From positions 1,178,001-1,242,000 of the forward strand of contig NZ_CP026538.1 in assembly GCF_004135975.1 (NCBI RefSeq): 64,000 bases of DNA. Direction: 5' to 3'. The number at the start of each line of letters is the position of its first letter. Position 1 is the first letter of the stretch. The notes beneath the pieces were generated by a model that saw only the letters and a list, made by a program, of their open reading frames with translations, made no database searches and was not told where the DNA came from. This DNA comes from Solidesulfovibrio carbinolicus. Lineage in GTDB: Bacteria > Desulfobacterota > Desulfovibrionia > Desulfovibrionales > Desulfovibrionaceae. The translations under genes were made by a program, and so were the position numbers. Of this stretch, positions 6,688 through 20,676 are shown in pieces.

Positions 6688-8610
6688 ATGGTGGACTGCA
6701 ACGAGCTTTGCCAGCGGCTTGGCGGCGACGATCCCGACGTGCTTCGGGACGCCGCCTATGATGCCGGCGAGAGCGGGTGCCTGGCGGCCGTTCCGCTTCT
6801 GGCCCATTTGCTGTGCTCGCACAACCTCGGTGTGCAGGAAGCGGCCGACCGGGCGCTGCGGCGTCTGGGCGGCAAGGACGTGGTGGCCGCGGTCAAGCCG
6901 CTTTTGCGCTCCGACGACGCCCCGGCCAGAAACGCCGCCATGGACATCCTGCGCGACGTGGGCGGCCAGGATTTTCCGACCCTGCTCGAACTGCTCCATG
7001 ACGGCGACCCCGACATCCGTATTTTCGCTTCGGATATCCTGGGCTCCACCGACAGCCGGCTGGCCGTGGGGCCGCTGTGCGAGGCCCTGCTCAAGGACCC
7101 CGAGGTCAACGTGCGCTATCAGGCGGCGGTGAGCCTTGGCGAACTGGCCTTTGCCGAGGCCGCGCCGAGCCTTGGCCAGGCCCTGGGCGACGACGAATGG
7201 GTGCAGTTCGCGGTCATCGAGGCCCTGTCCAAGATCCGCGACGCCTCCTCGGTCGGAGCCCTGGTCAAGGCCCTGGACCGGAGCACCGATCTGGTGGCTT
7301 CCATGATCGTCGACGCCCTGGGCGAGATCGGCAACATCAAGGCCGTGACCATGCTGCTCAAGCGCATGGACGCCTCGCCCGAGGTGCTGCGCAACAAGAT
7401 CGTCAAGGCGGTGGTGCGCATCCTGGGCGGCAAGGCCCTGTCGCTTTTGTCCCCGGCCGAGCGTGACCGTTTTCGCGGCTATCTGCTGGGGGCGTTGTCC
7501 GACGACGAGGACGATGTCCAGGACGCGGCCGTGTCGGGTCTGGGGTCCGTCAGCGGCGAGGAAGCGGCCCGGGCCGTGCTGGCCCATGCCGCCCGCCTGG
7601 ACCGCGACCATTTGCCCGAGCGCTACGAACACGCGATCACAGCCCTTCGGGACATGGGCCTCACCCAAGCCCTGGGCGACGCCCTGCGCCAGGGCGAAGA
7701 GGCCCAGCGGGCCGTGGCCCTGGACGTGCTGGCCGCCTTGCCCTGTCCCCAGTGCCCGGCCCTGCTCATGGACGCCTTCGCCGAGCTGCCGGCCTCGTTT
7801 CAGCCGGCGGCGGCCAAGGCCCTGGCCGCCATCGGCGGCGAGACGGCGGTGGAATTTTTCCTGGGTCAGCTTGATGCCGACAACGAGGCCGTGCTGCTGG
7901 AGGCCGTGGCCTTCCTGGGCGGCGGGATGCGGGTGGCTTCGGCCGGTCCGGCCCTTTTCGCCTTGCTCGGCCATCCTTCCGACGCCGTCAAGGAAGCCGC
8001 CCTGGACGCCTGCGTGGCCATCGGCGGGGCCGAACTCGACGCCCGCTTCCGGGAGCTTTCCCGCGGCGACGAGCCCATGGACCGGCTCATGGCCGTCTAT
8101 GCCCTGGGCCGCATGGGCGTGGGCGAACACATGGACATCATCCGCGAGGCCCTGATCGACGAGATTCCCGACATCCGCAAGATCGCCCTGGAGGCCCTGG
8201 CCGATTCCTGCGGCCACGAAGAGGGCAGCCTGTCGCTTATCGTCAGCCGTCTGACTGACGAAAGCCGGGATGTGCGGCTGGCCGTGGTGGAAGTGCTCGG
8301 CGGCTGCGACAGCGACAAGGTTTACACGTATCTGGAGCAGGCCTTAAACGACGAGGACGACTGGGTGCGCATCCGGGCCGTGGAAGCCCTGGGAGCGCGG
8401 GGCGAGCGCGAGGCCGTGCCGCGCCTGCTGGAACTGGCCGGAGAGCCAAGCAAGCTTGTAGCCATCAAAGCCGTGGAAACCCTCGGTGAGATCGGCGGCC
8501 CCGAGGCCTTTCAGGCCTTGCTCGGCCTTGTCGGCGGCGACGACCCGGAACTGGCCGGGGCGGCGGAAGCGGCCATAGCCCGCCTCCAGGACGAGCAAGG
8601 GGAGCGCTAG
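6688..8610 (+). CDS. HEAT-repeat protein of the chemotaxis operon
   Basis: I choose ATG 6688 (MVDCNELCQRL) because GCAAGGA lies just upstream; another ATG at 6652 overlaps the cheB stop. The product has 640 residues and consists almost entirely of about 30-residue HEAT/PBS-lyase-type repeats, with recurring phrases such as VRYQAAVSLGEL, IRIFASDILG, VRLAVVEVLGG and VRIRAVEALGARG. Such proteins form curved helical scaffolds for protein-protein contacts and have no enzymatic motif. It sits between cheB and cheR (3 bp from cheR), so it probably binds a chemotaxis component. It may scaffold the adaptation enzymes or the receptor array. That role is inferred from position only. Confidence 0.85.
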   Translation: MVDCNELCQRLGGDDPDVLRDAAYDAGESGCLAAVPLLAHLLCSHNLGVQEAADRALRRLGGKDVVAAVKPLLRSDDAPARNAAMDILRDVGGQDFPTLLELLHDGDPDIRIFASDILGSTDSRLAVGPLCEALLKDPEVNVRYQAAVSLGELAFAEAAPSLGQALGDDEWVQFAVIEALSKIRDASSVGALVKALDRSTDLVASMIVDALGEIGNIKAVTMLLKRMDASPEVLRNKIVKAVVRILGGKALSLLSPAERDRFRGYLLGALSDDEDDVQDAAVSGLGSVSGEEAARAVLAHAARLDRDHLPERYEHAITALRDMGLTQALGDALRQGEEAQRAVALDVLAALPCPQCPALLMDAFAELPASFQPAAAKALAAIGGETAVEFFLGQLDADNEAVLLEAVAFLGGGMRVASAGPALFALLGHPSDAVKEAALDACVAIGGAELDARFRELSRGDEPMDRLMAVYALGRMGVGEHMDIIREALIDEIPDIRKIALEALADSCGHEEGSLSLIVSRLTDESRDVRLAVVEVLGGCDSDKVYTYLEQALNDEDDWVRIRAVEALGARGEREAVPRLLELAGEPSKLVAIKAVETLGEIGGPEAFQALLGLVGGDDPELAGAAEAAIARLQDEQGER

Positions 8611-14395: not shown

Positions 14396-14484
14396 CCCGG
14401 CCAGGGCGCTGCCCTGGACCCGGCAGGGCGCTGCCCTGCACCCGCACGGGCGCTGCCCGTGACCCGGCAGGGCGCTGCCCTGCA
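14396..14484 (+). repeat. Four tandem 22-23 bp hairpin repeats
   Basis: Units at 14396-14418, 14419-14440, 14441-14462 and 14463-14484 begin with CCCG and each contains a 7-bp hairpin around a constant GCT loop. The stems are CCAGGGC/GCCCTGG, GCAGGGC/GCCCTGC, CACGGGC/GCCCGTG and GCAGGGC/GCCCTGC. Both arms change together in units 1 and 3, so base pairing appears to be maintained. The array begins right at the cheA stop codon. Confidence 0.85.
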
Positions 14485-14488
14485 CCCG

Positions 14489-14509
14489 CCGGGGGGATAA
14501 TCCCCCCGG
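14489..14509 (+). terminator. G-run/C-run hairpin after cheA
   Basis: CCGGGGGGA pairs with TCCCCCCGG across a TAA loop, followed by ACCCCCTGG. It has no T-run. The same hairpin type recurs after ftsZ, lysE-like, mltG, the aminotransferase and hydG, always in sense orientation. Confidence 0.55.
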
Positions 14510-14654
14510 ACCCCCTGGCCGTCCGTGGCGGGCGGGGGAGCCACAAGCGGGCGGGGTAGGCGCGGAAACGAGGGATAATTCCCTCGGCCTCAGGAGGGCA
14601 TTGGGCGTGGAGAGGTCAGGGAAAGGGGGGGAGCCGGGAAAGTTGCGGTCCGCC

Positions 14655-14683
14655 TTGCCATCAAACCGTCATCGTCCTATCGT
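14655..14683 (+). promoter_or_regulatory. Candidate promoter of the GAK-like cluster
   Basis: TTGCCA (14655-14660), a 17-bp spacer and TATCGT (14678-14683) lie 55 bases upstream of the first gene of the cluster. The -35 matches consensus at 5 of 6 positions and the -10 at 4 of 6. The remaining sequence between the cheA hairpins and this site holds no gene. Confidence 0.5.
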
Positions 14684-14737
14684 AGAGTTGCCGCAAATCG
14701 CCGGCCGCTCAACGGTCGCCGGCCGCAGGAGGACACG

Positions 14738-15301
14738 ATGCACGGATCGCGCAAACGCCGAATCGAAAAGACCCTGCCCCGAGACGAGGTCCCGCGCGCC
14801 CTGGCCGAAGTCGTGGCCCGGGCCGGAGAAGGCTTGCTCGTCATCGACGGGGAAGCCGTCGAACTGGCCGACTGCGCCAGCTTCAAGATTTCCGTCCGCC
14901 ACGGCGGCCCTACCTCCCAACTCAAGGTGACCCTGCGCTATCCCGAGGCCCCGGGCCTCCTGGGCGGCGACTCGCCGGCCAAGGACCGCCCGGATGAGCC
15001 CGTCCCGCACGGCCTGCCGCGCTACAAGGGCCTCAAAAAACGCATGAAGTCCACCTTCCGGGCCATCCGCGACGCCTTGCTGGCCGGCGCGGCCCCGGAT
15101 GCGGGCGTGGCCGCTTCGTTCGTCGCCGACTCGCGCCTCATGACCCGCTATCCCGGCAAGGGCGACGCCTACTACGCCGCCTATGACGCCGAGGTGGACC
15201 GCTTCGAGCAGGCCCAGGCCGCCGGCGACGTCGCCGCCCTGACCGCCTCGGCCGCCGCCCTTGATCGCCTGAAAAAGGAGTGTCACAGCCGCCATGCCTG
15301 A
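14738..15301 (+). CDS. XXXCH-domain protein (GAK-system associated)
   Basis: The product has 187 residues from ATG 14738 with AGGAGGA upstream. It is soluble. The N-terminal third (residues 1-70) looks like a small alpha/beta domain (EGLLVIDGEAVELADCASF). The C-terminal part is helical (YKGLKKRMKSTFRAIRDAL, then a 60-residue helix-rich tail) and ends in KKECHSRHA. That terminal Cys-His is the hallmark after which the XXXCH domain family is named. From memory, this family is annotated as part of the GAK system, found with ATP-grasp, HprK-related and CofD-like proteins; its function is unknown. The gene overlaps the next one by 8 bp, so the two are translationally coupled. The family call rests on the C-terminal motif and the neighbours. 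Confidence 0.7.
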   Translation: MHGSRKRRIEKTLPRDEVPRALAEVVARAGEGLLVIDGEAVELADCASFKISVRHGGPTSQLKVTLRYPEAPGLLGGDSPAKDRPDEPVPHGLPRYKGLKKRMKSTFRAIRDALLAGAAPDAGVAASFVADSRLMTRYPGKGDAYYAAYDAEVDRFEQAQAAGDVAALTASAAALDRLKKECHSRHA

Positions 15302-16460
15302 TTCCCCGATCCAGCCTGAAGCCCGCTGCCTGGAGATCGACCCCGCCGCCCTGGACCCGGCCGTGGGCGAGGAGGACGAAAGCGATTTTCTGCGCATAAA
15401 CGACGTGAGCCTCTCCCCCGAGCAGATTGAGCGCATCGTCTCGCCGGTCCGGGCCTATCCGCGCCAGGAATACGTCCTGGCCGTCCACTGGCACCCCGAA
15501 CACGTGCCCATGGAACTGCTCAAAAAACGTATCGACACGCTCTATCCCAACCGCGTGGACGAACTCATCGTGCCCACCCAGCACAACGTGCTCATGGACT
15601 ACGACGGCTTCCAGGGCGTGGAGGTGGACTGCTATTCCAGCGGATTTAATCGCAAGGTCCAGCTGCTGCTCCATTTTCACGGCCTCGACATGGAGCGGGC
15701 CGACGTGCTCAAGTCCATGCTGCGCCACACCCACCGCTACCGGGCCTCCCAGCTCTTCGAATACCTCGACGCCCTGGTCGAACCGGCCTTCGAGGATCGC
15801 CGCCAGCGCGCCGCCGGCCGCACCAACGCCGAAGAAGAACTCGTCGCCTTCGTGCGCGTCCAGGCCGCCAAGATCAAAAGTCTGATCCTGGCCCACGAGG
15901 CCGAGCTGCCCGACGACGTCTACAAGAACAAGCTCGTGCGCAACTTCCTCGACGCCAAGCGCGCCCGCTACGGCGACCGGCTCATAAATCGCGCCCAGGT
16001 CTACGCCAAGGCGGTCAAGGATCTGGTTAAGGAAGAATTCTCCCTGTCCTATTTCTACCGCGCCACCGAAGTCATCGAAGAAGCCCGGTCCCTTGGGGCC
16101 GGCATCGTCATCCCCCACCCCGAGCAGTTCTGGCCCATTCTCCTGGCCGACTACGACGTGGACGGCATCGAGGTCTGGAACCCCCAGTCCCAGCAGTACA
16201 CCGAGTTTCTGATAAACGTGGTCAATCGCCGCAACCACATGGGTTGGCACGGCAAGCGCCCCATCCTCGTCTTTATGGGCGACGACTGCCACATGAGCGA
16301 AAAGACCCGGCCCCTGGCCGAGCAGGACCCGGAAAAAGCCGCCCGGGAAATCGGCCTCCAGCCGGCTTGGCACGACTTCAGCATCCGCAAGAGCCTCATC
16401 ATCAACGGCATGAGCCGGCGCAAGGTCATCGCCGAATACCGTGACCGGCTCTCCGGCTAG
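15294..16460 (+). CDS. PHP-like metal-dependent hydrolase of the GAK-like cluster
   Basis: ATG 15294 (AAAAAGGAG upstream) gives 388 residues. Metal-ligand-like motifs appear in the order expected for a PHP phosphoesterase-type barrel: LAVHWHPEHVP near residue 65, IVIPHPEQFWPILLADYDVD near 270 followed by IEVWN, and LVFMGDDCHMSEK near 325. The middle (residues about 110-240) is a long helical insert with SSGFNRKVQLLLHFHGL and no domain I recognise. PHP proteins hydrolyse phosphoesters or phosphorylated small molecules; the substrate here is unknown. Coupling to the XXXCH gene suggests a shared pathway or complex. The PHP assignment rests on motif spacing and should be treated as provisional. 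Confidence 0.6.
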   Translation: MPDSPIQPEARCLEIDPAALDPAVGEEDESDFLRINDVSLSPEQIERIVSPVRAYPRQEYVLAVHWHPEHVPMELLKKRIDTLYPNRVDELIVPTQHNVLMDYDGFQGVEVDCYSSGFNRKVQLLLHFHGLDMERADVLKSMLRHTHRYRASQLFEYLDALVEPAFEDRRQRAAGRTNAEEELVAFVRVQAAKIKSLILAHEAELPDDVYKNKLVRNFLDAKRARYGDRLINRAQVYAKAVKDLVKEEFSLSYFYRATEVIEEARSLGAGIVIPHPEQFWPILLADYDVDGIEVWNPQSQQYTEFLINVVNRRNHMGWHGKRPILVFMGDDCHMSEKTRPLAEQDPEKAAREIGLQPAWHDFSIRKSLIINGMSRRKVIAEYRDRLSG

Positions 16461-16595
16461 CTTGGCGCACCCTCGATGCCCTTTCTCTTGATGGAAAAAG
16501 CCATAAACGCTGACGGCCAGTAGGCGCGCCAGACCGTCTGCCGGCCTGCCCCGGATGCGGCCTTTGCCCGGCGCGCCGCGCCAAAGGATCACGAC

Positions 16596-16877
16596 GTGGA
16601 TAAGGAAACGCATTTCAAATACGAATCCACCCAGGACGCCGACACCCTGCGGCGCTATCTCGAAGCCATCACCGCCGGATTCGCCGCCGGCGAACTGCGC
16701 CTGGGCAGCCGCGAAGGCGAGGTGGTGCTGCATCCCTCGGGCATGCTCGGCTTTCTGGTCGAGGCCAAGTCCACGGGCGGGCGCATGAAGCTGCACCTCA
16801 AGTTTTCCTGGCGCGAAACCTCGGCCGAGGACGCCGAGGACGACGCCCTGACCATCGCCCCGGGCGGTCAGTCCTGA
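16596..16877 (+). CDS. amphi-Trp domain protein
   Basis: A 93-residue protein from GTG 16596, with AAAGGA upstream. It contains the sequence pattern of the small amphi-Trp domain: FKYESTQDADTLRRYLEAI, VVLHPSGMLGFLVEAKS and LKFSWRE, with the conserved Trp in the last strand. A short acidic tail follows. From memory, these domains are typically encoded next to XXXCH, ATP-grasp and HprK-related kinase genes (GAK system) and have no known activity. The pattern suggests a beta-sandwich with one amphipathic face that binds a partner protein. It lies 135 bp after the PHP-like gene. Confidence 0.72.
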   Translation: MDKETHFKYESTQDADTLRRYLEAITAGFAAGELRLGSREGEVVLHPSGMLGFLVEAKSTGGRMKLHLKFSWRETSAEDAEDDALTIAPGGQS

Positions 16878-16995
16878 CGCGGCGTTGACTGCGTAGCGTC
16901 AGGCGTCGTGAAAAGATCTATCCGTATGCTCTGTTTCAGGCCGGTTTCGAGAACACTCGGGACGCGGACCTTGGAACAATCCCCTGGGAGCGGTC

Positions 16996-18630
16996 ATGCG
17001 CATTCTGGAAGGCATTGAAGAGAATTTTCGCTTCATGGTCCTGGAGGTCTCCAAACAGGTGGCCAGCACGCTCAATGTGGTGGAGCGGCCGGACCAGGAG
17101 TGCATCAAGCGTATCGAAAGTCGTGACGACTATATCGACAATCTCAAGAGCGTCATCGAGAACGCCTGCTGGGGTCGCATCCACGGTTCCACCGACCGCA
17201 ACAAGCGCACGCTCGATCTCGTTCGCGCCGCCAACATCATCAACATCAATCTGGAGCGCATCGCGGACTACGCCGTCAACATCGTCTCGCAGATGCAGTA
17301 TTTGACCGAACCAGCGTTTATCAAACGCTACGACTACCGCGCCCCCTTCGTGGACGTGGACAAGGCCCTGGGGCTGGTCTTTCAGGCGCTCACCCGCCAG
17401 GACGTGAAGCTGGCCCTGCGCATCTGCCGGGCTGAGTTCGCCCTGGATGACCATTTCAAGAAAGCCTTCGACGCCATTTTGGGGGATCTGCGCCAGGGCG
17501 AGTCCCCGGAAAACGCCATCTCTTGCTTCAATATTTTCCGCTATCTCGAACGCATGGGCGACGCCCTGCTCAACATCGGCGAGGCCGTCATTTTCGCGGC
17601 CCTGGGCGAGAAACTCAAGATCCACCAGTACCAGGCCCTGCAGGATACCCTGGAGCTGGGCGAGGAAACGCCGATCACCCCAGGGGATTTCCATTCCATC
17701 TGGGGCACCCGGTCAGGCTGCCGCATCGGCCGGGTCCAGGAGGGCCACGGGGCGCGTTCCAAGGGCGTGCTTTTTAAGGAAGGCAATGCCGACAAGCTGG
17801 CCAAGGAAAAAGAGAACATCGAGCGCTGGCAGCGCCTGTCGCCTGGTCTTGCCCCGAGCATCCAGGCATTTCAGACCGACGGCGATTCGGCCTCCATGCT
17901 CCTGGAGTACCTGGGCGGCTGCAACGTCCAGGAAGTGGTGCTGACAGCCGACCGGGAGATCGTGGAAAACGCCTGCTTCCTGGTCACCCAGACGGTGGGG
18001 GGACTGTGGGAGCAAACCCTTGTCCGCCGGCCCGTCGCGGCCGACGCCATGGCCCAGTTGCGCGCCCGCCTGGACGACGTGTTCGGGCTGCACCCCCACC
18101 TCGCCTTCGGCCCCATGGACATCGGCGGTCAGGCCGTCGCCGGCCTGGACGCCCTGCTCGGGGCGGCCCAGGCGGCCGAGAAGACCCTGGCCGCGCCGTT
18201 TGCCGTGCTGCTCCACGGCGATTTCAACCTCAACAACATCGTCTACGACCACACCGCCCAGCGCATCCACTATATTGATCTGCACCGCTCCCGTGAGGGC
18301 GACTACGCCCAGGACACGGCGGTGTTTCTGGCCTCCAATTTCCGGCTGCCCTTTTTCGACCGCAAATCGCGCGGCCAGTTGGAGCTGGCCATGCGGCGTT
18401 TCCTGGAATTCGCCCGGGGATTTGCCGCCGAGCAGGGGGACGAGACCTTCGAGGCCCGCCTGACCTTTGCCGTGGCCCGGGCCCTGGCCACCTCGGCCCG
18501 GTTCGAGATGAAGGCGTCCTTTGCCCGGGAGCTGTTCCAGCGCGGCGTCTATCTTCTGGAGCGCGCGGCCGGCCATGCCGGCCGTCCCTGGGAGGCGCTC
18601 GCCTTCCCGGACGCGGTGCTGACCTACTGA
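16996..18630 (+). CDS. PhoU domain fused to an APH-type small-molecule kinase
   Basis: ATG 16996 gives 544 residues. Residues 1-215 form two PhoU-like three-helix bundles (ILEGIEENFRFMVLEVSKQV, INIINLERIADYAVNI-type helices, FRYLERMGDALLNIGEAV). Residues about 230-540 form an aminoglycoside-phosphotransferase/choline-kinase fold: a glycine-rich GVLFKEG strand with a candidate ATP-binding Lys, the Brenner motif LLHGDFNLNNIVYD (near residue 407), and the Mg-binding IDLHRSREGDYAQD (near 425). The catalytic residues look intact, so it should phosphorylate a hydroxyl on an unknown small molecule. PhoU domains normally regulate phosphate uptake, so the fusion suggests kinase activity tied to phosphate state. 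It ends the GAK-like cluster. I know of no characterised homologue. Confidence 0.8.
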   Translation: MRILEGIEENFRFMVLEVSKQVASTLNVVERPDQECIKRIESRDDYIDNLKSVIENACWGRIHGSTDRNKRTLDLVRAANIININLERIADYAVNIVSQMQYLTEPAFIKRYDYRAPFVDVDKALGLVFQALTRQDVKLALRICRAEFALDDHFKKAFDAILGDLRQGESPENAISCFNIFRYLERMGDALLNIGEAVIFAALGEKLKIHQYQALQDTLELGEETPITPGDFHSIWGTRSGCRIGRVQEGHGARSKGVLFKEGNADKLAKEKENIERWQRLSPGLAPSIQAFQTDGDSASMLLEYLGGCNVQEVVLTADREIVENACFLVTQTVGGLWEQTLVRRPVAADAMAQLRARLDDVFGLHPHLAFGPMDIGGQAVAGLDALLGAAQAAEKTLAAPFAVLLHGDFNLNNIVYDHTAQRIHYIDLHRSREGDYAQDTAVFLASNFRLPFFDRKSRGQLELAMRRFLEFARGFAAEQGDETFEARLTFAVARALATSARFEMKASFARELFQRGVYLLERAAGHAGRPWEALAFPDAVLTY

Positions 18631-18704: not shown

Positions 18705-18743
18705 AAAAAACGCAGGCCCCTCTTCCGGCGGGAAGAGGGGCCT
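18705..18743 (-). terminator. Terminator of the HD-GYP gene
   Basis: A 13-bp stem (AGGCCCCTCTTCC with GGAAGAGGGGCCT, loop of four bases) is followed on the minus strand by six T. It lies about 90 bases beyond the HD-GYP stop. On the plus strand the T-run is missing, so it serves mainly the minus-strand gene, though the stem could also stop transcription from the PhoU-kinase gene. Confidence 0.85.
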
Positions 18744-18833: not shown

Positions 18834-19847
18834 CTATTTGCCGCCGGCCAGGAAGGCGATGAGCCGTTTGACCACGTCGGCCGGATAGCGCTTGGCGTCT
18901 TCGTACAGCTTTTTGGCGGCGGCCAGCTGCTCCATGGCCGGGGCGTAGGGCCGCTTGACGATCATGGCGCAAAACGAATCCACCACCCCGGTCAACAGCC
19001 CCAGTTCCGAAATTGTTCCCACCCCGATCTTTTGCGGGTAGCCCGAGCAGTCCAGCCGCTCGTGGTGTTCCGACACGCACCGCTCCATTTCCGGAAACTT
19101 GATGTCGATGCGGGTAAGCATCTCGTAGCCGGCCATGGTGTGGCCTTTAATTTTTTGCATCTCGTCAGGCAAAAGCGGCTTGGTCTTGTCCCGGATCATG
19201 GCCGGCACCCGGGTCATGCCCAGGTCGTGGAGAAAGATGCCGAGCAGGGAGCGGTCAAGGATGTGGCGGGCGTTTTTCTGGTCCCGAAAGCCGTCCGACT
19301 GGCCGGCCAGGAAGAGATGCAGGCCCAGCAGCCCGCAGTTGACGGCGTGGTTGGCCAGGCAGTGGGTCGTGTGCAGCCGCTTGGCCAGGGCGCGGGTGCG
19401 GTGGAAATCCTCCCAGACGTACTCGGTGAGCACCAGCACGTCCTCGCGCACCTTGTCGTAGACCAGCCGCACCGGCTGGTCGAAAAAGGCTTCCATGCGC
19501 CGGGTCAGGGCGATCTGGAAGATGTCGGCGATCTCCGATTCGGTGAGATGCTTATCCAGCAGCACCAGATCGAGCTGGTAGCTGATGTGCTTGACGTAGA
19601 CCGCGTGGTCGGCCCGGGACACGAAGATGACGCCTTCGGCCACCAGATCGGCCAACTCTTGGGCCTGTTCCTTGGAAAGACGGTCGCCGACCTTGTAATA
19701 GGGCGTAATGCGGGACACGTTTTCCAGGAAACGGTAAATGTTCAGCGGCGGCCGCAGCTTGTTGAAGCTTTGCAGGATATCGGGATTGATTTGATAATAC
19801 TCTTCCTCAAGCCCCGCCGGAATTTCCAAGGTCGCCCTGTCGCGCAT
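18834..19847 (-). CDS. HD-GYP domain protein, probable cyclic-di-GMP phosphodiesterase
   Basis: The start at ATG 19847 (MRDRATLEIPAG) is preceded by GGAAGGG; the frame stays open another 500 bases, but that part reads as non-coding. The protein has 337 residues. Residues 1-150 are an N-terminal domain I do not recognise. The C-terminal half has HD-GYP motifs: the metal-binding IFLHDLGM, KGHTMAGYEML, the signature SEHHERLDCSGYPQK, and VVDSFCAM. HD-GYP enzymes degrade cyclic-di-GMP to GMP. The signature normally reads HHERLDGxGYP; here the Gly after Asp is Cys, which may or may not matter. There is no receiver domain, so the trigger is unclear. A strongly folded leader lies upstream. Confidence 0.85.
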   Translation of the reverse strand: MRDRATLEIPAGLEEEYYQINPDILQSFNKLRPPLNIYRFLENVSRITPYYKVGDRLSKEQAQELADLVAEGVIFVSRADHAVYVKHISYQLDLVLLDKHLTESEIADIFQIALTRRMEAFFDQPVRLVYDKVREDVLVLTEYVWEDFHRTRALAKRLHTTHCLANHAVNCGLLGLHLFLAGQSDGFRDQKNARHILDRSLLGIFLHDLGMTRVPAMIRDKTKPLLPDEMQKIKGHTMAGYEMLTRIDIKFPEMERCVSEHHERLDCSGYPQKIGVGTISELGLLTGVVDSFCAMIVKRPYAPAMEQLAAAKKLYEDAKRYPADVVKRLIAFLAGGK

Positions 19848-19909
19848 GATGCCCTTCCATGGGTCAAAATCCGTCGCTGATGCCCCCGATGCGGCAAGGG
19901 GGAAGAATA

Positions 19910-19975
19910 TGCCGTGACTTGCGACCCTTAACGGGTTCCGCTGCGTTCTGGCAAGGCTTGCTTCGCAATACGGCA
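19910..19975 (-). ncRNA. Folded 5' leader of the HD-GYP gene, possible cis-regulatory RNA
   Basis: On the minus strand, 63-128 bases before the HD-GYP start, TGCCGT pairs with ACGGCA and, just inside, TTGCGA with TCGCAA. Within the enclosed 38 bases are two smaller hairpins: GCAA/TTGC around GCC, and ACCC/GGGT around GTTAA. The result is a closed multi-branch fold. I compared it by eye with the c-di-GMP-I riboswitch consensus and did not find the expected conserved bases. It could be an undescribed regulatory RNA or a chance fold. Confidence 0.35.
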
Positions 19976-20140
19976 TGACGTCCTGCGGCGCCGTCTCCCG
20001 CCCGAGGATCGGTGTTTGCCGAAAAATCCATATATCCCACATCGTTTTCGCAATCTGGCCGATATCACAAAACATTTCCCACCAAAGGCCGAAAAATGGC
20101 CTGGCGTCCGGGCTTGTGTCCGTCAAAGGGTGGTTTGTCC

Positions 20141-20197
20141 TTGACACTGGGGGGTGATTGGTGGATGGAATGTGGGAAATGGTGGTAAGAAGTGGTG
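20141..20197 (+). promoter_or_regulatory. dcw cluster promoter with MraZ boxes
   Basis: A -35 TTGACA (20141-20146) is followed about 19 bp later by a -10-like TGGAAT. Overlapping it are GTGG cores at 20161, 20172, 20182 and 20192, an 11-10-10 bp register. In studied bacteria MraZ binds direct TGGG-type repeats spaced one helical turn apart and represses its own promoter. The position before mraZ and the periodicity fit that. The rest of 19976-20140 shows no gene; 19910-19975 is the folded leader of the divergent HD-GYP gene. Confidence 0.75.
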
Positions 20198-20217
20198 AGC
20201 CACCCCAGTGAGGGGCC

Positions 20218-20676
20218 GTGTTCCGGGGACATTCCAATCGCAGCCTCGACCCCAAGGGTCGCCTGATGCTCCCGCCCGAATTTCGGGAGGAGATTTTTCG
20301 TCTTGTCCCCGATGGCCGCGTGATGCTCACCAACAACTTCGACGGGGCCATCTCCGGCTACCCCATGCCCGAGTGGGAGGCCGTGGAAGCGAGCTTTCGG
20401 GCTGGCAACACGCTGATGCCCGGCTTTCGGGACATCGAACGGTTTTTCATCGCCGGGGCCACGGAAGTGACCGTGGACAAGCAGGGGCGCATCCTCATCC
20501 CGCCCTACCTGCGGACTTACGCGGGGCTGGACAAGGAAATGGTGCTGGCCGGGGTGGGAACGAAGTTCGAAATCTGGGACCAGGGCCGCTTCGAGGAGCG
20601 CTTGCGCCAGACCGCCGCCAACTTCAACGCGCATATGGAAGCCATGGCCGCTTCCGGCGTTTCGTTGCGGTTCTAG
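20218..20676 (+). CDS. mraZ: Transcriptional regulator MraZ
   Basis: GTG 20218 gives 152 residues of two tandem SpoVT/AbrB-like swapped-hairpin modules: FRGHSNRSLDPKGRLMLPPEFR, and EVTVDKQGRILIPPYLRTYA in the second. MraZ forms ring-shaped oligomers and represses the dcw operon. It is the first gene of the cluster, 9 bp before rsmH, and the GTGG repeats in its promoter are the likely binding site. Length and both DxxGR motifs are typical. Confidence 0.95.
   Translation: MFRGHSNRSLDPKGRLMLPPEFREEIFRLVPDGRVMLTNNFDGAISGYPMPEWEAVEASFRAGNTLMPGFRDIERFFIAGATEVTVDKQGRILIPPYLRTYAGLDKEMVLAGVGTKFEIWDQGRFEERLRQTAANFNAHMEAMAASGVSLRF

Follow-up and report, generated by a model that had tools for sequence, protein, structure and literature searches.

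The GAK system is known from five NCBIfam models, TIGR04354 to TIGR04358 (amphi-Trp, HprK_rel_B, grasp_GAK, CofD_rel_GAK, and XXXCH), the last three of which carry GAK in their names. No paper on its function was found in the 5.39 million open papers searched, a set that did not cover subscription papers and preprints. Here we analyze a block of four genes in Solidesulfovibrio carbinolicus that lies in a 64,000-nucleotide stretch of contig NZ_CP026538.1 (positions 1,178,001 to 1,242,000; hereafter the window) and encodes an XXXCH protein, a PHP-superfamily protein, an amphi-Trp protein, and a PhoU domain fused to an APH-type kinase. Whereas XXXCH and amphi-Trp are in the window, ATP-grasp, HprK_B, and CofD are encoded elsewhere in the same genome, each over its cut-off (424.8, 535.3, and 534.4 bits). 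The PHP and PhoU/APH proteins are near-constant members of the operon in our analysis, and no GAK model for either turned up. The name of the system is NCBI's; new here are these two added members, the fold of XXXCH, a split of the operon, and a link to phosphate. We assign a probability of about 0.5 to the reading that, in Desulfobacterota and a small number of other phyla, GAK is a Pho-regulon (phosphate-starvation) kinase/phosphatase module.

A first-pass annotation, made from the letters of the window, had read four adjacent plus-strand genes, some overlapping. All four are present at that place and on that strand (Table 1); genes 1 and 2 share 8 bp, and no other pair overlaps. The proposed XXXCH, amphi-Trp, PhoU, and APH families were each matched over the model cut-off in profile searches: TIGR04358 scores 93.4 bits (cut-off, 40) for the XXXCH gene (NCBIfam), TIGR04354 and PF20068 score 68.7 and 32.4 bits (cut-offs, 31 and 27) for the amphi-Trp gene, and PF01895 and PF01636 score 79.9 bits, over two stretches, and 26.9 bits (cut-offs, 23.5 and 23.2) for the PhoU/APH gene. 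Two of the families had been called named GAK components, which holds by model name for XXXCH (TIGR04358) and not for TIGR04354. Membership of amphi-Trp is shown by its place in the operon, downstream of PHP in 71/80 loci (see below), and we presume that the amphi-Trp and HprK_rel_B models belong to GAK.

An alignment of the PHP protein was scanned against the genome_contigs collection (84,980 species), yielding 221 stretches with a relative. The named loci are the best-scoring 80 of these 221, a set that leans to close relatives, and the counts of gene order below take in only loci with enough contig room. By title they are mostly Desulfobacterota or 'Deltaproteobacteria', with a few metagenome-assembled genomes labelled Phycisphaerae, Nitrospinota, Atribacteria, or Zixibacteria. 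The usual order across loci is [XXXCH]-PHP-amphiTrp-PhoU/APH-ATPgrasp-HprK_B-CofD-[amphiTrp]. Downstream of PHP, PhoU/APH is found in 76/78 loci, ATP-grasp in 66/73 (six of the seven misses being Solidesulfovibrio-type split loci), HprK_B in 51/68, and CofD in 50/63; XXXCH is upstream of PHP in 52/76.

In a sample of 120 genomes from the order, the genomes with PHP and those with PhoU/APH are exactly the same 62, which rules out a chance row of genes. All but one of these (61/62), and no other genome, have the GAK ATP-grasp over its cut-off; in the exception (G060), an ATP-grasp fragment sits at a contig end. CofD_rel_GAK is over cut-off in 100/120 order genomes and absent from 3 of the 62 that are PHP positive. 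In 395 genomes of the phylum, PHP and ATP-grasp occur together in 21, ATP-grasp alone in 3, PHP alone in 7, and neither in 364. One genome (G361, PHP E value of 4.7e-4) was left out of the PHP-positive counts. Outside the order, the distance from PHP to ATP-grasp is 1,953 to 2,125 bp in 15/15 genomes holding both. The Escherichia coli control genome has no XXXCH or amphi-Trp match and no GAK ATP-grasp or CofD over cut-off.

Several variations and recurrent neighbors of the operon were also observed. Reduced GAK versions occur in G105, G107, G109, and G118, in which a CofD_rel_GAK copy adjoins XXXCH and, in G105, amphi-Trp as well. In L144, L151, and L154, the operon ends with amphi-Trp genes that enclose a gene for a ParA/MinD-like ATPase of 251 aa (Pfam checked in L154 only). 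In S. carbinolicus, the region L105:7105-9212 has an orphan amphi-Trp gene (7105-7401) at a distance of one gene from a ParA-like gene. EAL-CBS-GGDEF proteins adjoin GAK in 10/80 loci by sequence clustering (L130, L131, L132, L146, L149, L155, L156, L163, L191, and L192; Pfam on L132) and also at locus 3 of S. carbinolicus (L204:4794-7100), a possible link to cyclic di-GMP (c-di-GMP). Mg2+ transporters (MgtA-type, CorA, and MgtE) are found beside both scattered loci of S. carbinolicus and 6/80 named loci (e.g., L103:4725-7550, L204:11162-12097, and L184:4223-5656).

The link to phosphate status suggested in the first-pass annotation is supported by four lines of evidence: phosphate-gene neighbors, distances in whole genomes, candidate genes for phosphorus-free lipids, and Pho-box-like repeats. 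First, PstS, PstB, PhoU, PiT-type, or Na/Pi transporter genes are in the fetched flanks of 14/80 loci, against approximately one expected by our own estimate from genome size; tail probabilities were computed from such estimates, and related genomes are not independent. Flanking PstB proteins are over the curated cut-off in 7/7 cases tested and PstS in 2/2, checks of L200 and L175 gave PHO4 and Na_Pi_cotrans, and a check of L194 gave a PBP domain; the remaining flank PstS and PhoU calls are from phmmer alone. In D. gigas (G092), the genes run phoB-phoR-pstB-phoU-XXXCH-PHP-amphiTrp-PhoU/APH-ATPgrasp-HprK_B-CofD, with phoB and phoR named by domain and place, and in G002 a PiT gene (PF01384) and a DUF47 gene lie on the opposite strand between ATP-grasp and CofD. 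The window itself has no PstB over cut-off; the two such PstB genes of the genome lie elsewhere, one of them 0.8 kb before HprK_B2-CofD. Second, by hand count, 11/62 PHP-positive order genomes have a GAK-family gene no farther than 10 kb from a PstB that is over cut-off (G000, which is S. carbinolicus, G002, G006, G032, G076, G082, G088, G092, G094, G101, and G115). CofD and PstB are ~2.0 kb apart in 5/6 genomes of the window's genus, on separate contigs in the sixth (G103), and 1.7 and 1.3 kb apart in G076 and G082.

Third, genes that are candidates for the synthesis of phosphorus-free lipids flank 11/80 loci, comprising a double acyltransferase that we take as OlsF-like (6 loci) and a group 1 glycosyltransferase (10 loci), whose N terminus looks PHP-like by eye and for which Pfam gives the transferase alone. 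Homologues of Agt and OlsF matter at low phosphate in D. alaskensis G20 (PMC5193443). PhoH-like genes flank 11/80 loci (L125, L127 to L132, L146, L168, L189, and L190) and, as the family is broad, were not counted as phosphate evidence.

Fourth, the regions upstream of the first operon gene were searched for direct repeats in 77 loci, three of the 80 having been dropped because the first gene is within 260 bp of a contig end. With at most one mismatch, TGTYA-N6-TGTYA is present in 30/77 regions versus 2 to 7 at ten other spacings, and exact copies are present in 10 regions versus 0 to 1. Among 60 letter orders of TGTCA at an 11-bp period, GTTAC (16) and TGTCA (14) rank at the top, the mean being 2.2, and GTTAC-N6-GTTAC is found in 16/77 regions versus 0 to 3 at other spacings. 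PHO boxes are described as 11-nt direct repeats (PMC4415409), and GTTAC-N6-GTTAC corresponds to the half-site of a gel-shift-tested PhoB site upstream of the lactate operon in D. vulgaris (PMC6456213). The two forms combined occur in 36/77 regions versus 4 to 11 at other spacings. In 251 other intergenic upstream regions of the same loci, including one (L160) whose intergenic stretch also belongs to a GAK operon, exact repeats are found in 11, and 8 of these precede pst/pstS-like, phoB-like, PiT, Na/Pi, or glycosyltransferase genes.

Upstream of the window block, the element CTTGCCATCAAACCGTCATCGTCCTATCGTA contains the Pho-box-like direct repeat TGCCA-N6-CGTCA (14656-14671), with 2 mismatches of 10, along with TTGCCA from 14655 and TATCGT to 14683. 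All 31/31 bases are identical in another species (L125), where flank identity is 29% before and 42% after the element. The element is also identical in L123 and L124, near identical in L126, and clearly weaker in L127 to L129.

A number of observations weigh against placing GAK in the Pho regulon. No phosphate transporter or PhoU gene lies in the fetched flanks of 66/80 loci, and 41/77 operons have neither repeat form at the same stringency. The repeat is also present in 39/251 of the other intergenic regions (≤1 mismatch), so the enrichment before GAK is just ~2.5-fold. The window site, with its 2 mismatches, may simply be a promoter and does not by itself stand out as a Pho box, and the region upstream of the genome's second locus has no TGTYA-N6-TGTYA-type repeat. 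Nor is the module constant in composition: in the phylum sample, 7 of the 28 genomes with PHP have no GAK ATP-grasp and 3 of the 24 with ATP-grasp have no PHP, CofD_rel_GAK turns up in 41 PHP-negative genomes of the order, and in one Solidesulfovibrio (L126, apparently G101) even the window block is interrupted downstream of PHP, amphi-Trp and PhoU/APH being on another contig.

The four genes of the block are the 5' half of a GAK operon that is split in Solidesulfovibrio. Most of the relatives examined have these genes leading directly into ATP-grasp, HprK_B, and CofD within one operon, and the S. carbinolicus genome has three loci, with those core genes at the other two (Table 1). The first-pass annotation, which had noted that the core genes are not here and described the block as an accessory half or a satellite, was right in substance on the first two points; satellite is too weak a term, as both halves are retained in 9/9 split genomes (six of the window's genus, g1, and three of a second genus, g4). 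In all of these (6/6 and 3/3), PHP and ATP-grasp are on separate contigs or have 0.59 Mb or more between them. An orphan satellite or decaying locus is likewise not favored, given this retention and the intact active-site residues. In S. carbinolicus, the genes at the break points (amphi-Trp with PhoU/APH, and HprK_B) occur in two copies, and the window PhoU/APH protein has a paralogue at G000:C1:1887714-1889309 (47% identity).

A PhoU/APH tree was built from 71/87 named-locus matches (score of >550, >480 aa) and a further 9 sequences; for HprK_B, ATP-grasp, and CofD, the trees omit 15 loci, mostly other phyla and long branches. Among the branches listed, the PhoU/APH and ATP-grasp proteins of locus 2 group with L130, G089, and L133, and the window PhoU/APH groups with G092, L131, L132, and L142. 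This pattern suggests two parental operons behind the split, which would have lost complementary parts, a tentative history given the long branch of the second PhoU/APH copy (1.01). The HprK_B copy at locus 3, which is over the NCBIfam cut-off, has no Pfam match and is very divergent (branch of 3.5), which makes any history of the copies tentative.

The product of gene 2 is modelled as a PHP protein with an RNase AM/nucleotide-phosphatase fold. The PHP-like call in the first-pass annotation thus stands on fold and ligands, with Pfam and NCBIfam models giving no match beyond chance: no Pfam PHP model matched any of 40 members at E values up to 0.1, and the sequence gave no useful match against the PDB. 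Eight ligand-type residues, presumably the PHP metal ligands as judged by motif, are invariant in 40/40 aligned members. Identity to RNase AM (9etk and 7ug9), 2yb1 of C. violaceum, and BAD_1165 (3o0f) is 14 to 18%, and 2yb1, among the nearest folds, has AMP bound. In contrast to these known phosphoesterases, the window family is linked to GAK and is outside every Pfam PHP model. The window protein is 97 to 99% identical to those of S. magneticus loci. A divergent PHP branch (318 to 370 bits) is found in G331, G352, G372, G410, G446, and G481 (family f87), genomes with no GAK ATP-grasp over cut-off.

In gene 4, the HGDFNLNN and IDLHRS motifs noted in the first-pass annotation are both present, and H407, G408, D409, N411, N413, N414, D428, R431, and S432 are invariant in 14/14 aligned proteins. 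With a domain model match, HGDxxxxN, and Asp428, which we take to be Mg binding, the C-terminal part has the features of a putative APH-type kinase. The APH subfamily search gave weak matches to APH(3'), and as these are weak, no substrate can be named. The PhoU part matches solved PhoU structures by sequence profile (E value of 6.6e-19) and scores 81.3 bits against TIGR02135, the equivalog for the Pst regulator PhoU, below the cut-off of 130.25. Gene 4 thus shares a domain with known PhoU and differs by its kinase fusion; standalone PhoU genes additionally adjoin some GAK loci.

The XXXCH protein is modelled as an amphi-Trp-like domain joined to a four-helix cytochrome c'/b562-like bundle. 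The Cys-His that it was said to end in is near the C terminus, at residues 182 and 183 of 187, followed by a short tail (ECHSRHA). His183 is kept in 36/36 aligned proteins, Cys182 in 35/36, and Met103 in 34/36, and this Met could serve as a second heme ligand alongside Cys182-His183. The fold and the position of the C-terminal Cys-His are like those of cytochrome c'/b562. In contrast, XXXCH lacks the first heme cysteine, retaining Cys-His alone of the CxxCH attachment motif, carries the amphi-Trp-like domain, and has a charged N terminus with no evident signal peptide by eye. Short XXXCH proteins (~110 aa, no amphi-Trp part) are encoded 30 to 390 bp before parA-parB in 9/10 fetched regions with such a gene (L104:6181-8926, which is S. 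carbinolicus G000:C1 ~15180-17930, L208, L209, L211 to L214, L216, and L217, but not L210), including in genomes without PHP, e.g., G033 and G007. The label "GAK system" on these short proteins may be misleading.

A working scheme for a phosphate-starvation module can be drawn from these predicted activities. PhoB would induce the operon under phosphate limitation, and the PhoU domain would sense phosphate or metal status and gate the fused kinase. ATP-grasp, the HprK-like kinase, and the CofD-like protein may build or pass on a group, the PHP enzyme would remove what the kinases add, acting on one shared phosphorylated substrate, either a small molecule or a carried group, and the amphi-Trp and cytochrome c'-like proteins may act as scaffold, carrier, or redox/heme-sensing partner.

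The chemistry could instead be directed at proteins, with HprK_B and the PhoU-kinase phosphorylating amphi-Trp/XXXCH or the Pst/PhoR machinery and PHP reversing it. HprK_B weakly resembles HPr Ser kinase (TIGR00679, 32 to 36 bits, far below cut-off), and several of the operon's products are small and non-enzymatic. However, the proteins with the closest PHP folds have nucleotides or RNA as their targets, and ATP-grasp and CofD-like enzymes suit small-molecule chemistry; we consider such a relay unlikely. We also think it unlikely that its purpose would be tuning of phosphate, Mg2+, or c-di-GMP signalling, to which the recurrent EAL-CBS-GGDEF neighbors and the Mg2+ transporters adjoining loci 2 and 3 could be related.

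Small-molecule chemistry of another kind is biosynthesis of an F420/tetrahydromethanopterin-type cofactor, in which the kinase would produce a hydroxy acid in phosphorylated form for transfer by the CofD-like enzyme, and a RimK/MptN-like ATP-grasp would add an amino acid. After its own model, the GAK ATP-grasp is indeed nearest to MptN (143.5 bits, below cut-off) and RimK, and the CofD domain PF01933 scores 125 bits. Yet CofD_rel_GAK matches YvcK, a regulatory relative, at 115 bits as well, its gene is found in those 41 order genomes without PHP and is missing from 3/62 with it, and the Pho context is left unexplained by cofactor synthesis alone, making this reading distinctly doubtful.

Finally, GAK might synthesize and mobilize an organic phosphorus reserve, a multiply phosphorylated sugar held in granules. 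ParA ATPases position inclusions, and D. gigas, in which the full operon is behind phosphate genes, reportedly forms glucose pentakis/hexakis(diphosphate) granules, as D. magneticus is said to form P-Fe granules, both according to older papers. That GAK comprises the enzymes of such a pyrophosphorylated-sugar reserve in sulfate reducers, under PhoB/PhoU control and with ParA-type proteins, like those between the amphi-Trp genes of three loci, placing the granules, is a long shot. D. alaskensis G20 makes DAPI-positive polyphosphate granules (PMC5193443). The reserve reading is very improbable, as PhoB-type induction would come at low phosphate, when reserves are spent rather than made, and we saw no enzyme specific for sugars among the products of the operon.

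The window block is preceded by CheY- and CheA-type genes; downstream of it, an HD-domain gene runs convergently and a mraZ/mraW/ftsI cluster begins (CheY and mraZ/mraW/ftsI read from sequence). The HD-domain frame (minus strand, 18834-20351) overlaps the mraZ-like frame (plus strand, 20218-20676), and its true start is probably internal; a terminator-like stem for this gene is at 18714-18743. Between cheA and the XXXCH gene (14400-14510) there are several copies of a palindromic unit resembling ggcagggcgctgccctgc, possibly REP-like.

Table 1. GAK genes and associated features in S. carbinolicus (window positions unless a contig is given)
Feature	Position	Strand	Content or basis
Promoter element CTTGCCATCAAACCGTCATCGTCCTATCGTA (putative)	14654..14684	+	11-bp direct repeat over -35/-10-like pair
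XXXCH protein, 187 aa	14738..15301	+	Predicted amphi-Trp-like N-terminal domain (~1-72) and cytochrome c'/b562-like C-terminal domain (96-187)
PHP-superfamily metal phosphoesterase-like protein, 388 aa, GAK operon member	15294..16460	+	Fold and ligands
Amphi-Trp protein, 93 aa, GTG start	16596..16877	+	TIGR04354, PF20068
PhoU domain (~1-220) fused to APH-type kinase domain (~230-544), 544 aa	16996..18630	+	PF01895, PF01636
Locus 2	G000:C1:1885710-1889571		amphi-Trp, PhoU/APH', ATP-grasp, HprK_B; then magnesium-type P-ATPase
Locus 3	G000:C1:2230795-2233064		HprK_B2, CofD, then CorA

Placing GAK in a phosphate-starvation context gives a first testable idea of its function and suggests for anaerobes a route of phosphate adaptation apparently missing from E. 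coli.

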